From contig JAGBAX010000022.1 of NCBI GenBank assembly GCA_017938765.1, positions 50,538 to 114,537 of the forward strand: a DNA stretch of 64,000 bases. The letters are read 5' to 3'. The notes under the pieces were generated by a model that saw only the letters and a program-made list of their open reading frames with translations, was not told where the DNA came from and ran no database searches. This DNA is from Alistipes sp. (GTDB taxonomy: Bacteria; Bacteroidota; Bacteroidia; Bacteroidales; Rikenellaceae). The translations under genes and the position numbers were made by a program. This document shows positions 50,539 through 55,337 of this stretch, piece after piece (the first letter of the stretch is position 1; every line of letters begins with the position of its first letter).

Positions 50539-52017
50539 ATGAGTAACTTAACACTTGCAATTACCACCGTTGGGGATTTGCTACTTAATGGTAAACTTAC
50601 GCGCAGGGAGGATGGACACTCTGAGCCCGTAAGGCTGACTATACCCGTCTACCAGCGCCCATACAAGTGGTCGGCGCGTAATGCTATTCAGCTGTTAGAT
50701 GATATTATAGAGGCGCGAAACGCCAACAAGGAGGTTTACCGCGTTGGTACGCTGATTCTGCATAAAGATGGCTGTGGTAACTACAATATTGTAGATGGTC
50801 AGCAGCGCACTATAACCTTCTCGCTGTTGCTCTATGCCCTCTATGAGTTGGAGCAGGAGCAAGATAGGCTAAAGATTGAATTTCTGGAGCAGGATGTGCT
50901 GAGCAATCAATTCAGCCGCCGCAATATCCCGAATAATCTCAACGCCTTTAGACGCAGGATTCTCAAGGGGGCAACGGACGAAGCGGATGGTGCGGAACAT
51001 AAGCGCAATATGCAGAATCTGAGGAGTTTTATTGAGTCGCAGTGCGAGCTTATTGTAGTCGTTACGGAGAATCTATCAGAGGCTTTCCAGTTCTTTGACT
51101 CGCAAAATGCGCGCGGCAAGGCCCTCTATCCGCACGACTTGCTCAAGGCATACCACCTGCGCGAGATGACAGACCTTAAGGCCGACGAGGTGGAGCAAAT
51201 TGTGGCGCAGTGGGAGACAATCCCGCAGGATAAGCTGGCAGAGTTCTTTGGACAGTATATCTACCGCATAAAGGAGTGGATAAATGGCAACTGGGCGGAG
51301 AGCCTTACGGAGCACAATATCTACAAGTTTAAGGGTATCAACCGCACTGCCCGCACACCTTATGCGCAGTTCTATAAGAGCGCGTACTCATACGCCCAAA
51401 TGATAAATAACTCGGCAATGCCTTTTGTGTCGGGCACAAGGGAGATTAATGCCTTTCAGCTCAACACGCCTATAATTGCTGGCAAACCATTCTTTGATTA
51501 TACACAGCACTACTACCGCATACTGCACGATGTGCACGATAATAGCAAGTACGAGGGCTTCTATATCAAAGATAATGAGATAGTTAAAACCCTTGACCGC
51601 TACTTTGATGGTGGCAGTGGCAACCGTATTGTAAGACTGCTTTTTGACACAGCCTTGCTACTCTATGTAGACCGTTTCTGCCCTGCCACATTCCCAACAA
51701 AGGAGGATACAGAGCTCTTTGAGCGATTTGTTGTCTACGCCTTTATCTGGGCATACTCACTGCGCGCGCAGTACTACCGTCTGGGTTGGCAATCTACCCA
51801 GAACTACATCCTCGGAGGCTCTGGTAAGGTAAATGAGGGCAATATCTACAAACTTATCACCGACTCGGATACTCCACTCTCGCTACTCAGTGCTATGGAG
51901 GACCGCCTAAGCCCAATTCGTGTGGGCGAGGATGTCGGCAATATTGATTGTAAGGATGATGGTGTATATAGGCACTACCTCCATTTTTTTGCAAAGTACA
52001 ACTTTTTAGATAAGTAG
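50539..52017 (+). CDS. DUF262-domain protein (GmrS-like half of a pair)
   Basis: The 492-residue protein has the DUF262/ParB-like nucleotide-binding and hydrolysis signatures IPVYQRPYKWS (35-45) and VDGQQRT (85-91), with 'FQFFDSQNARGKALYPHDLLKAYHL' downstream. No DUF1524 HNH end is present. DUF262 proteins include GmrS and SspE-type enzymes that restrict modified phage DNA. It is followed 4 nt later by a second DUF262 protein, which does carry the nuclease domain. A -7 box TATCTTTG lies at 50509-50516. Confidence 0.88.
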   Translation: MSNLTLAITTVGDLLLNGKLTRREDGHSEPVRLTIPVYQRPYKWSARNAIQLLDDIIEARNANKEVYRVGTLILHKDGCGNYNIVDGQQRTITFSLLLYALYELEQEQDRLKIEFLEQDVLSNQFSRRNIPNNLNAFRRRILKGATDEADGAEHKRNMQNLRSFIESQCELIVVVTENLSEAFQFFDSQNARGKALYPHDLLKAYHLREMTDLKADEVEQIVAQWETIPQDKLAEFFGQYIYRIKEWINGNWAESLTEHNIYKFKGINRTARTPYAQFYKSAYSYAQMINNSAMPFVSGTREINAFQLNTPIIAGKPFFDYTQHYYRILHDVHDNSKYEGFYIKDNEIVKTLDRYFDGGSGNRIVRLLFDTALLLYVDRFCPATFPTKEDTELFERFVVYAFIWAYSLRAQYYRLGWQSTQNYILGGSGKVNEGNIYKLITDSDTPLSLLSAMEDRLSPIRVGEDVGNIDCKDDGVYRHYLHFFAKYNFLDK

Positions 52018-52021
52018 AGTT

Positions 52022-54046
52022 ATGAGTAATAGACTACCTATAGAGGAGTGTTCAATATCCCAGATATATATGGAGGGCGGTACTCCCATCAGATACACTA
52101 TCCCTATCTACCAGCGCAACTACGCTTGGGGCGATGAGCAGATTGAGGCACTTATTAACGATGTTTTAAACGCGTTTCTCAAGTCCAGAAACTCTATCTA
52201 CTATATCGGCACCCTTGTTACCTATAAGCGCACCAATAGCGACTTTGAGGTTATTGATGGCCAGCAACGACTGACAACTATATACCTAATTCTCAAGCGT
52301 TTAGGTGTTGATGTGGTGAATACCCTGACCTATACCGCCCGAAAAGTCTCGGCAGCGACTATTCAGAGTGTGCCCAATTTAAATGAGGCCTCAGATAGCG
52401 CAATAGCGCATGGATACAGGGTTGTTGATAAAAAGATTACCGAGATTGAGGCTGCAATAGATTTAGGGGCATTCAAGAGCTTCTTCTTGAACAATGTGCA
52501 TATTATCTACTACCAAGTGCCCAAGGATGTGGACCTTAACCACTACTTTGAGGTTATGAACTCGCGTGGCGAGCAGCTTGAGATGCACGAGATTGTCAAG
52601 GCGATGCTCAGCGAGCCATTAGCTGCTGGCGCAGAGAGTAGCAAGATGTCTATTTTCAATGCAGTGTGGGAGGCTTGTAGTGAGATGAATGTCTACATAC
52701 AGCAGCGACTTTGCGATAGCACTATCTTCGGCAGCCACCTTGATAGATTTACTATTGACTCTTTTGAGGGTATCCCACAGCAGAGTAGTCAGGAGCAGAA
52801 GTGCTCAATACTCTCGCTGCTTAACCTGTCGGCGCAGAGTGTCGTTACAAGTAGCACCACCCAGCTGAGTGATAAGTTCCAGCCGATTATTGACTTCCCG
52901 AACTTTCTGCTTATTGTGCTTAAGCTGACCTTGAATGATGATAGGTGCTTGACTGTCGCTCTTGACGACAAGGAGCTGCTCAAGACATTTACCGATATGT
53001 GGTCTGCTTGCGAGAATAGGGCTGACTTTGCGCGTACATTTGCCTATAACCTGCTCAAGGCTAGATACTTGCTTGATAACTACATTGTCCATCACGATAT
53101 GTCGGATATAGAGCAGTTGGGCAATAACCCGTGGAGACTTGGGCGATACTATAAGGAGGACCGTAATAGCTATCCGAGGCAGTTGTCGGCAGATGACAAA
53201 GTGCAGTCAGAGATAGTACACCTACTCTCAATGTTTGAGGTCACTTTTACTGCAAAACAGCGCAAAAACTACCTCTTCTACTGCCTTAAGTATCTGTTTG
53301 ATAGAGATTTGGCAGATGATACAAACTTTGAGGACTATCTGCACTTCTTGCAACAGTTGGCAGATAAGTACTTCTACGATATCTATCTGAATAGAGCGTT
53401 GCTCTCTACTCGCAACCTGCCAAAGCCAAATACCTTTGATGAGGCAATTATTTGCGACGGTAAGCTCTGCTTGGATCTGAAGAGCAACATCTCGCCAGAG
53501 CTCTTTACCGCCCTCTATGTTGAGGGTAGCGATGCAATACCGCTCTATGTCTTTAACTATACCGACTACCGCCTCTGGAAGAGGTACGCCCTTGAGATGA
53601 GGGGCGAGGGGAGTAACGGCTCAAAGCGTACCGCCTTTTTTGAGAGCCTCGGCTGTGGCGATTTCGGTCTTAGAGTCTTTGATAACTTCTACTTCTCCCG
53701 CACCCGCAAGAGCCTTGAGCACTACTACCCGCAATCTAAGGCTGTCAAGGGCGATGTAGATACCGCCGAGGCGCTCAGTACAAAGAGCATCAACTGCTAC
53801 GGCAACTTCGCCATGATTGGCGCTGAGGCCAATAGCTCAGGCAATAACCTTGACCCAGTGACAAAGCTCATCCGCTATAACGACCGAGGCTTTGACCCTA
53901 TTAGCGTTGCCTCTCTGAAGTTCAAGATTATGATGCAGATGTGCCAAGACAATAAGGCATCCCAAACCCGCCCTCAATCTATGGAGTGGAACCGCGAAGA
54001 CATGCACCTCCACACCTCCAAGATGCTGGATATACTGTTTAAGTAG
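52022..54046 (+). CDS. DUF262-DUF1524 protein (GmrSD-like)
   Basis: The 674-residue protein has IPIYQRNYAW (27-36) and VIDGQQRL (77-84) of the DUF262 domain, and a C-terminal DUF1524 His-Me finger/HNH domain with LEHYYPQ (about 564-570) followed by NCYGNFAMIG (about 588-597). This is the single-chain GmrSD layout of type IV restriction enzymes. It is translated just after the DUF262-only gene, so both are likely made together. The C-terminal end is intact at 54046, 45 nt from the convergent SLOG gene. Confidence 0.9.
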   Translation: MSNRLPIEECSISQIYMEGGTPIRYTIPIYQRNYAWGDEQIEALINDVLNAFLKSRNSIYYIGTLVTYKRTNSDFEVIDGQQRLTTIYLILKRLGVDVVNTLTYTARKVSAATIQSVPNLNEASDSAIAHGYRVVDKKITEIEAAIDLGAFKSFFLNNVHIIYYQVPKDVDLNHYFEVMNSRGEQLEMHEIVKAMLSEPLAAGAESSKMSIFNAVWEACSEMNVYIQQRLCDSTIFGSHLDRFTIDSFEGIPQQSSQEQKCSILSLLNLSAQSVVTSSTTQLSDKFQPIIDFPNFLLIVLKLTLNDDRCLTVALDDKELLKTFTDMWSACENRADFARTFAYNLLKARYLLDNYIVHHDMSDIEQLGNNPWRLGRYYKEDRNSYPRQLSADDKVQSEIVHLLSMFEVTFTAKQRKNYLFYCLKYLFDRDLADDTNFEDYLHFLQQLADKYFYDIYLNRALLSTRNLPKPNTFDEAIICDGKLCLDLKSNISPELFTALYVEGSDAIPLYVFNYTDYRLWKRYALEMRGEGSNGSKRTAFFESLGCGDFGLRVFDNFYFSRTRKSLEHYYPQSKAVKGDVDTAEALSTKSINCYGNFAMIGAEANSSGNNLDPVTKLIRYNDRGFDPISVASLKFKIMMQMCQDNKASQTRPQSMEWNREDMHLHTSKMLDILFK

Positions 54047-54090: not shown

Positions 54091-54549
54091 CTACAGGATT
54101 TTGACAGGTGTGTTGCTATAGTGTGTTAGGCTATAATACATAGGCGAGAGCATACTATTCTCGTCAAATGGACTTAGAAATACCTCATCTGCTATACTTG
54201 CCGCATACCAATTGCGAGTTTGGGCAGAACTCCAGCTATGGCGCTCAAAATCACGGACGGAGTCTATCAGCATACGACCTTCATTGATTGCATCTTGAAA
54301 TTCTGCTGGCACGCGCTTGTACATTGCACGACCGAGGAGGAGTATTACAGGGTGCTTGTGTTCAAGTAGAACTTTGAGAATCCTCTTTTCAAGTGGAGAG
54401 TGAAATCCGCTGATAACAACTGAGTCGGTGTTGCACATAGACTCTGCCCAAGCAATACATCTGCTTTCTGCCTCTGGTGTGACCGAGCGAGAGGCGAAGA
54501 AGGCTACAAGATGTCGCCCCAACAAATCCGTATTTCCGAGCGAACTCAT
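54091..54549 (-). CDS. DprA/SLOG-like Rossmann-fold protein
   Basis: The 152-residue protein resembles the Smf/DprA (SLOG) core: LLGRHLVAFFASRSVTP at the start, then 'SGFHSPLEKRILKVLL', 'HPVILLLGRAMYKRVP' and 'INEGRMLIDS'. It lacks the SAM and winged-helix domains of true DprA, so a DNA-uptake role is doubtful; SLOG domains bind nucleotides or single-stranded DNA. Its first ~17 codons and the 270 nt upstream are duplicated at 55009-55337. A minus-strand -7 box at 54819-54812 would drive it through a long structured leader. Confidence 0.8.
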   Translation of the reverse strand: MSSLGNTDLLGRHLVAFFASRSVTPEAESRCIAWAESMCNTDSVVISGFHSPLEKRILKVLLEHKHPVILLLGRAMYKRVPAEFQDAINEGRMLIDSVRDFERHSWSSAQTRNWYAASIADEVFLSPFDENSMLSPMYYSLTHYSNTPVKIL

Positions 54550-54819
54550 AAAAAAGCGCAGGCTGCTGTCTGCTTACCCCGCGCCCAAGGCCTTCGCTGC
54601 CCGTCAACAAGGATAAGTGACAGACAACCCACGCCGGATGTATATACAAACATACACTACGCCATAAACGCAGTGCTGACGATATAACATCGCAGGTGGT
54701 GCCTATCACCGTTCCTCCTGTTGACAAAATTTGCGAAGTTTTGGGTCGCAGAAGAATCGTTAATAATGCACAATCATACATTGACTTAACGATTTTCATC
54801 GTAAGCCATTACAAAGATA
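54498..54819 (-). ncRNA. Structured leader RNA of the SLOG gene, copy 1
   Basis: Reading leftward: a -7 box TATCTTTG (54819-54812), a GAAA-type hairpin (54805-54785), a long-range stem between TGTTGAC (54725-54719) and GTCAACA (54609-54603), a nested conserved hairpin (54675-54655), then a small hairpin and six T (54557-54552) directly before the ATG. Copy 2 keeps all these elements with different bases in the arms, and the last ~60 nt up to 54498 are identical between copies. The T-run before the ATG suggests an attenuator. Confidence 0.65.
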
Positions 54820-54874
54820 TAGAAAATTTTTGAGAAAGCGTGAATTTGTGAAAAACTCTTGTGTTGGAATTTCG

Positions 54875-54948
54875 TATCTTTGCACTATATCGCCAGATTT
54901 AGGGTGCAATCGCAGTGGATTATGACTGTGTGGATTGCGAGTGGCGAG
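54875..54948 (+). other. Rightward -7 box followed by a long hairpin
   Basis: TATCTTTG at 54875-54882 faces right. It is followed by a nested hairpin (54890-54947) with arms TCGCCA/TGGCGA, GCAATC/GATTGC and CAGT/ACTG. A transcript from here would run antisense through leader copy 2. No ORF is supported. Confidence 0.45.
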
Positions 54949-55008
54949 ACGCAAAAGCGAGGTTTATTTAGGCGTAAATGAGCATTTAGAGCGAGCCGCT
55001 TTGTTGTC

Positions 55009-55337
55009 AGAAGGCTACAAGATGTCGCCCCAACAAATCCGTATTTCCGAGCGAACTCATAAAAAAGCGTAGGTATCTGTATCAACTTACCCTCCGCTCA
55101 AGGCCTTCGCTGCCCGTTTGAATGAATAAGCAACACAGACAGCCCACGCCAGATGTATACGCAACAATCACTACGCCAGAAAACGCAGTGTGTGGATATT
55201 CATCCTTAATGGACGCCTGAATTGACTTACCTCATTCAAACTGTAAAGTTGCGAAGTTTAGAGCGAAGAAGTGTTGTCAACCATCGTCTATCATATATCG
55301 GCATTTGCGGTTTTGCCGCAAAGCCATTACAAAAATA
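55009..55337 (-). ncRNA. Structured leader RNA, copy 2 (stand-alone)
   Basis: Homologous to copy 1 from AAGCCATTAC (55321-55330) to AGAAGGCTAC (55009-55018). It has a -7 box TATTTTTG (55337-55330), a 5' hairpin with a 7-bp TTTGCGG/CCGCAAA stem (55322-55304), the long-range stem TCATTCAAAC/GTTTGAATGA (55232-55241 with 55116-55125), a hairpin at 55169-55190, and six T before ATG. The reading frame after that ATG stops after MSSLGNTDLLGRHLVAF. It is thus an RNA copy without its gene. Confidence 0.65.

Follow-up and report, generated by a model that had tools for sequence, protein, structure and literature searches.

A putative four-segment transcription attenuator RNA at the start codon of SLOG-type genes in Bacteroidales

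Main finding

Two copies of a leader RNA were found in the window (the whole 64,000-nucleotide stretch of Alistipes sp. DNA analyzed here), and each of them is read as a putative cis-acting four-segment transcription attenuator. In this RNA, a long rod would compete with a segment 1:segment 2 helix and a segment 3:segment 4 terminator located at the start codon of a SLOG/DprA-like gene. The probability of this reading is estimated at about 0.7. It is based on covariation within each of the two folds, a fixed site in front of the SLOG gene and the wide conservation of the leader. The two exclusive folds, the fusion of the T-run with the start codon, the wider leader family and the exchange of leader cassettes go beyond the preliminary description of this locus.

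Organization of the leader copies in the window

Direct comparison confirmed the two copies previously reported on the minus strand (54819-54498 and 55337-55009). Each copy contains a TAnnTTTG box followed by about 270 nt, a T6 run and, directly after it, an ATG. The box of copy 1 is TATCTTTG, which we take to be a -7 box according to the Bacteroidetes promoter consensus; a TAnnTTTG-like box was found by pattern in 30 of 31 sequences and also served to cut the sequences out. All paired arms listed earlier were present, namely TGTTGAC/GTCAACA and TCATTCAAAC/GTTTGAATGA, which form helix P3, and CTTACGAT/ATCGTTAAG and TTTGCGG/CCGCAAA, which form the 5' hairpin P1. The coordinates of all features are given in Table 1.

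Several parts of the preliminary description were revised. The element had been given a length of about 315 nt, but the leader proper comprises about 270 nt. The last 72 nt at the 3' end are 94% identical between the copies, and a 58-nt block running from T6 into the ORF, picked from the sequence itself and found 0 times in shuffles of the window, is identical in both; thus, the 3'-most 52 nt of each copy were attributed to coding sequence. Where a terminator-like hairpin with T6 had been described, the T6 run was retained and the small local hairpin was not: the conserved stem is long and imperfect and consists of GGCGTGGG..TTATCC paired with GGGGTAAG..CCTGCGC. Copy 1 does precede an intact SLOG ORF. 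Copy 2 was said to have lost the gene; the body of the gene is indeed gone, but 17 codons remain.

Table 1. Positions of the leader RNA features and SLOG sequences in the window
Feature	Position	Strand	Evidence
Leader RNA copy 1, -7 box to T6, SLOG gene intact downstream	54550..54819	-	R1 86.2 bits, R2 107.5 bits
Copy 1, presumed -7 box	54812..54819	-	sequence
Copy 1, P1 5' hairpin	54783..54807	-	
Copy 1, segment 1, partner of segment 2 in the terminator fold	54751..54773	-	covariation
Copy 1, P2 outer stem and core, 5' arm	54733..54749	-	covariation, core-anchored pairing
Copy 1, P3 5' arm (GTCAACA of the preliminary description)	54717..54729	-	cross-pairing test
Copy 1, segment 2, partner of segment 1 or segment 3	54696..54718	-	covariation
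Copy 1, apical hairpin P6	54654..54676	-	cross-pairing test
Copy 1, segment 3, partner of segment 2 or segment 4	54611..54635	-	covariation
Copy 1, P3 3' arm (TGTTGAC)	54603..54612	-	cross-pairing test
Copy 1, P2 core and outer stem, 3' arm	54581..54597	-	covariation, core-anchored pairing
Copy 1, segment 4, terminator 3' arm	54556..54580	-	consensus folding, covariation
Copy 1, T6 run fused to ATG	54547..54555	-	
SLOG/DprA-like ORF, 152 aa	54091..54549	-	ORF, profile matches
Leader RNA copy 2, -7 box to T6	55061..55337	-	R1 86.8 bits, R2 139.4 bits
Copy 2, P1 hairpin	55300..55325	-	
Copy 2, segment 1	55265..55288	-	
Copy 2, P2 5' arm	55251..55265	-	
Copy 2, P3 5' arm (GTTTGAATGA)	55230..55241	-	cross-pairing test
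Copy 2, segment 2	55211..55233	-	
Copy 2, apical hairpin P6	55169..55190	-	
Copy 2, segment 3	55124..55150	-	
Copy 2, P3 3' arm	55116..55124	-	
Copy 2, P2 3' arm	55095..55110	-	
Copy 2, segment 4	55067..55092	-	T6 next at 55061-55066
SLOG 5'-end remnant behind copy 2, 17 codons	55009..55060	-	copy comparison

Covariation support for two mutually exclusive folds

The rod comprises a variable outer stem (P2out), a CTT[C/G]GC/GC[C/G]AAG core, P3, a segment 2:segment 3 helix and an apical hairpin. The alternative fold consists of the segment 1:segment 2 helix and the segment 3:segment 4 terminator, which ends in the T-run. Since segments 2 and 3 are used in both states, the rod and the terminator fold are mutually exclusive. 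Folding of ten single leaders led to the rod in most cases and to the terminator in L055; consensus folding led to the terminator together with the segment 1:segment 2 helix.

Both folds were examined in an alignment of 70 leaders with less than 93% identity (A4), from which four sequences were left out (three cut by contig ends and one in which a -7 box was not found). Alignments were made using MAFFT; kinship among the sequences inflates the shuffle controls, and a single leader, L003, served for drawing the pairs of both folds by hand. In the terminator fold (39 pairs), 93.9% of cells were paired, compared with 39-48% in slid controls, and double changes were found at 20 pairs, amounting to 122 cells versus 48 in shuffled alignments. 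The covariation score of this fold showed a modest excess (0.288 versus 0.229 shuffled), and its pair types were reached by 2 of 500 shuffles. The rod (29 pairs) was paired in 92.1% of cells (36-48% when slid) with double changes at 18 pairs; here, 271 double-change cells were counted versus 81 shuffled, and covariation was 0.434 versus 0.212. By helix, the share of paired cells was 92, 81 and 94% for the pieces of segment 1:segment 2, 97.2% for segment 3:segment 4 (H34), 95% for the outer stem and 88% for segment 2:segment 3. Some individual pairs are missing in as many as half of the leaders: columns 130:189 of the terminator fold are unpaired in 38 of 68 leaders, and columns 195:288 and 207:276 of the rod in 32 of 67 and 34 of 70, respectively. 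Paired sequence change had earlier been taken as evidence for selection on RNA structure, with covariation in a larger alignment named as the test that could refute it; the claim survived this test on the 70 leaders, and the comparison supports selection on the structure of the RNA.

The outer stem of the rod is wholly different between relatives, yet it still pairs. When it was anchored on the core only, 91% of eight positions were paired, compared with 54% in shuffles and 35-44% in slid controls; this analysis covered 93 distinct sequences of the SLOG type and the wider family, 27 of 130 candidates having been dropped as not anchorable. All four Watson-Crick types were observed at seven of the eight positions, and the innermost pair was no better than shuffles. 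Three variants of the core were found (CTTCGC/GCGAAG, CTTGGC/GCCAAG and TCTCGC/GCGAGA), but they were not counted as a test because complementarity was a requirement of the search for the core.

An alignment-free cross-pairing test, in which the 3' arm of each leader was compared with 3' arms of dissimilar leaders, was also used. For P3, the own partner gave -11.8 kcal/mol versus -6.3 kcal/mol with the foreign arms. Among the 70 SLOG leaders, the own partner was better than the mean foreign partner in 66 for P2out, 64 for P3, 67 for H34, 60 for segment 2:segment 3 (H23) and 59 for segment 1:segment 2 (H12). It belonged to the best 5% of the cross set in 57 leaders for P3 and 52 for the outer stem, the strongest helices; the low counts for H12, H23 and H34 (16, 18 and 24) are explained by conserved arms that also pair across leaders. 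Cross-pairing was weaker in 27 non-SLOG leaders, where the own partner was better in 18 for H12, 18 for H23, 20 for P2out, 22 for P3 and 24 for H34. For P1, 65 of 86 leaders had a hairpin energy within the lowest 5% of the mononucleotide-shuffled sequences.

The computed energies of the two folds are close: the mean gap is 5.9 kcal/mol, of about 95, in favor of the rod. The rod was favored in 60 of 70 leaders, and 45 of 70 had a difference of no more than 8 kcal/mol between the states. After shuffling of segment 4, the mean gap was 17.3 kcal/mol (SLOG and other leaders); this control indicates that the segment 3:segment 4 stem is strong and says nothing of a tuned balance.

Proposed mode of action

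The order of promoter, leader and ORF, the pairing logic and the energy balance fit a transcription attenuator. As in terminator-type attenuators, a terminator stem followed by a T-run lies between the promoter and the ORF, and an alternative pairing that excludes the terminator is backed by covariation. In the rod state, segment 3 and the first bases of segment 4 would be occupied, and RNA polymerase would proceed into the gene (ON). Formation of segment 1:segment 2 together with segment 3:segment 4 would end the transcript at the T-run (OFF), and, as the segment 3:segment 4 hairpin stands directly before the ATG, translation would also be low. From termination and the start-codon hairpin alike, we infer that the rod is the ON state. 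The fold would probably be picked by a ligand or protein reading the conserved P2 loops (AA-CTT[C/G]GC and GC[C/G]AAG-GCC).

In trp-type attenuators, the overlapping helices 1:2, 2:3 and 3:4 are followed by a T-run after 3:4. The SLOG leader shares the three overlapping helices and the T-run behind 3:4, but differs in an additional covarying outer stem and core around 2:3, in a T-run that touches the start codon and in the lack of a conserved leader peptide among ATG-started frames. These frames over segment 1 differed by eye across 31 sequences, among them L024, which is without the leader; a sensor based on ribosome stalling of the trp kind is therefore unlikely. Riboswitches with a terminator platform join conserved core loops to an exclusive antiterminator and terminator, and the leader resembles them in these features. 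In contrast to riboswitches, the leader is about 270 nt long and precedes SLOG and many unlike genes rather than the genes of one metabolic pathway.

Occurrence of SLOG-type leaders

In a nucleotide search that scored two candidates per genome, 64 of 268 genomes from the family to which the window belongs had the leader. A covariance model of the final 89 nt of the leader (R1) matched 157 of these 268 genomes at an E-value of 0.001, with 16 candidates scored per genome and more distant leaders included. Many of the genomes searched are incomplete, and the E-values of the models are rough. From 140 R1 matches in 99 and 34 sources, 118 were inspected, with repeats of one place and some weak matches left out; 101 were SLOG-type leaders and 17 belonged to the wider family.

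In 92 of the 101 SLOG-type matches (87 distinct sequences), an ORF of at least 120 aa with a SLOG-type start began -2 to +3 nt from the end of the match; fusion of the T-run with the start codon is thus nearly invariable. Seven further matches had a shortened ORF (L036 and L075, both at contig ends, L022, window copy 2, L015, L144 and L143), and two matches in L146 had no SLOG ORF. Three leaders are located in tandem in L146 (2089-3031), about 320-325 nt apart, with a SLOG gene behind the last one only. In L022, an intact leader is followed by a SLOG ORF that ends after 17 codons, and the sequence beyond is unlike SLOG. In the order's other families, the R2 model described below found the leader at 0 of 7 loci with SLOG relatives, the upstream sequence of L042 being just 245 nt long.

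Wider leader family

Weak R1 matches had the same architecture upstream of unrelated genes. As R1 models a terminator, it is poor for judging distant matches, and the wider family was called with a rod model without segment 4 (R2), built from 43 sequences. With few candidates scored per genome, R2 matched 48 of 247 genomes of the order at an E-value of 1e-5, the window's own included, and, at the looser value of 0.001, 2 of 344 genomes of a phylum sample beyond the window's genome; the latter figure also bounds the false matches of R2. Five leaders were found in the window's genome, three of the SLOG type and two others; of the latter, L179 is followed by a lipoprotein-like gene and L180 by a secreted-protein-like gene, gene kinds being assigned by eye. 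In L179 (1765-1923), the leader and the lipoprotein-like gene are separated by a short ORF (MKNLEQRTYLIPEIEVNEI...).

The genes around the leader were compared at 53 distinct wider-family loci, with the leader end of R2 loci estimated from the model. Counting ORFs of 100 aa and longer, the nearest one downstream was co-directional in 49 cases, opposite in 3 and absent in 1, and the same-strand ORFs were located at a median distance of 93 nt. On the upstream side of these loci, 36 ORFs were on the same strand, 13 on the opposite strand and 4 were absent (median 311 nt). A crude pattern found a signal-like start in 28 of 52 first downstream ORFs. Pfam analysis of 50 such ORFs revealed LRR_5 in four, carboxypeptidase-regulatory domains in two, TerB in two and single cases of SPFH, kinase, HTH and others. 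In many leaders of the broad type (e.g., L095, L107, L113 and L188), a short hairpin-like stretch with GGGAGTY or GGGGTTG was observed about 10-45 nt past the T-run and before the start codon. A purine motif was counted at 16 of 59 loci versus 10 of 59 upstream control windows, six loci being repeated among the 59, and its enrichment is not established.

The wider family bears on two other explanations. According to the first, the leader would be an independent structured RNA that carries its own terminator and acts in trans, as a protein-binding RNA or a partner of SLOG, and SLOG would be expressed by leaky read-through. Type III toxin-antitoxin loci, in which a promoter, a structured RNA, a terminator and one ORF follow each other and the toxin is made by leaky read-through, have the same layout. 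The gene-less tandem leaders (window copy 2 and two of the three copies in L146) and the long rod with conserved internal loops would suit such an RNA. However, it would not need conserved mutually exclusive pairings, and the downstream genes of the wider family are unrelated to SLOG and still co-directional at almost all loci. A repeat search of the locus gave no tandem repeat within a leader, and the window ORF had no ToxN-like profile match, only DprA-type ones, unlike the type III systems. A trans-acting RNA is thus considered unlikely. The second explanation is a processive-antitermination leader of the kind of EAR and put, whose rod would load on RNA polymerase and carry it past the terminators of the operon. 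The length of the leader, its several copies per genome and its position before diverse genes agree with this. Nevertheless, the leader holds its own overlapping terminator and anti-antiterminator, pointing to a local switch, and in the SLOG type the controlled gene begins at the T-run, which makes processive antitermination distinctly improbable.

The Rfam 15 search of the window locus gave no match at the gathering score, and at a permissive threshold the best hit was unconvincing (14.5 bits against 50). In 20 related loci, Rfam found a tRNA in L160 only and no leader RNA match. Structured RNAs known from this phylum include the Bacteroidetes motifs of Weinberg 2010 (PMC2864571), among them Bacteroidales-1 and Bacteroid-trp. 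The leader was matched by none of the motifs that have an Rfam model; the comparison covers these motifs, Bacteroides-2 having no Rfam entry in the table of that paper. No paper on the leader RNA was recognized in the literature searched, and an earlier description is possible. As judged from these searches, the leader is an RNA family that is absent from Rfam 15 and order-wide in Bacteroidales.

The phage and plasmid records searched gave no match. Among viral contigs, SLOG was found in two and the core motif in one. A 181-kb viral contig (L212, 960-976) contains the exact core motif AAACTTCGCAACTTTGA and no full R2 leader in the stretch examined. A full leader before SLOG is present in a 10.5-kb contig catalogued as viral (L213, 2792-2962), which is possibly a host contig.

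Exchange of leaders between loci

Across 87 loci, leader RNA identity and protein identity gave a partial correlation of r = 0.70, and comparison of individual loci shows that the leader and the gene recombine as separate cassettes with different histories. Loci L005 and L006 are 93% identical upstream and 98% identical in the gene, with leaders of 55% identity. The reverse was found for L021 and L031, where 95.5% identical leaders lie between an upstream region of 46% and a gene of 55% identity. In the SLOG locus of L004 and L024, of which L004 lies at the site of L005, the promoter, 5' hairpin, T-run and gene are kept and nearly all of the leader between them is missing.

These swaps between flanks, conserved in one pair and diverged in the other, could also be taken to mean that the conserved ends serve mainly for swapping promoter-leader units, folding being a by-product of promoter and terminator needs. 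The stems covary across leaders, however, which argues that folding is kept by selection, and a mere recombination cassette is scarcely probable.

The leader before the MSSLGN-type gene of L010 shares 97% identity with window copy 2. Copy 1 matches the leaders of L009 and L008 at 95-98% identity; these belong to MDLSGN-type genes, yet copy 1 precedes an MSSLGN gene. In the simplest history, the copy-1 leader would have been brought in upstream of the gene and the body of the first gene copy lost, the order of events being inferred. Exchange of whole leaders between loci would explain the gene-less second copy. Leader swapping at a fixed locus is an unusual mode of regulatory evolution.

The SLOG protein and its gene neighborhood

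Weak profile matches link the SLOG protein with DprA, ShosA and PsyrA: DNA_processg_A (PF02481) was matched by 28 of 29 members, PsyrA by 27 and ShosA by 7. The window protein was below the cut-off of Pfam (23.8 bits versus 29.6) and missed that of the NCBIfam DprA equivalog (16.5 versus 191). A match at 0.0011 was obtained with DprA structure 3uqz from the PDB. PsyrA is a DprA-like antitoxin, and ShosA is named a DprA-like antitoxin in its PDB title. Modeling using AlphaFold2 with five sequences led to a mean pLDDT of 60.6 for SLOG, and a Foldseek search with the model gave nothing at an E-value of 0.001 or below (best E-value 0.071; ShosA, 8zva, E-value 0.24, query TM 0.51). Thus, the assignment of the SLOG fold is based on the weak profile matches. 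SLOG differs from DprA, ShosA and PsyrA in its size of just 152 aa, in the scores of the window protein under curated cut-offs and in the lack of a conserved neighbor gene in the sample.

The locus had been placed between a DUF262 pair and a helicase-nuclease. The pair was confirmed by Pfam as two GmrSD_N proteins; their adjoining genes (50539-54046), one of which encodes DUF7834, run convergently toward the SLOG locus. On the other side, a UvrD helicase with HRDC and a Zn-ribbon was found, but no nuclease domain was present among its Pfam matches at an E-value of 0.001. The neighbor genes of the window were not common to the other SLOG loci sampled. A link to defence islands, hinted at by the DUF262 neighbors, was not supported as a general rule by a scan of neighbor ORFs of SLOG loci: the 83 of 139 ORFs scanned contained 108 Pfam and 61 PADLOC families, each in at most two members, with DndC, GajB and WYL among the PADLOC families occurring once or twice. 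Individual SLOG loci may lie near defence genes. A recurring partner toxin gene of the ShosTA/PsyrTA type next to SLOG was not found by Pfam and PADLOC among these ORFs.

Significance for Bacteroidales

Bacteroidales dominate many gut communities, and, to our knowledge, few cis-regulatory RNAs have been described for them. It is possible, at somewhat less than even odds, that the SLOG leader belongs, as one branch, to a so far undescribed class of ligand-sensing leaders spread across the order, i.e., an orphan riboswitch-like attenuator, for secreted, surface and stress-type genes. The switch of the SLOG branch would then be an exchangeable cassette, so that one gene may meet different alleles, of two types or none, at one locus. 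A leader family absent from Rfam, clearly covarying and present in several copies per genome, would provide a new entry to the switching of DprA-like and many secreted-protein genes, and its conserved core makes a search for the signal practical.
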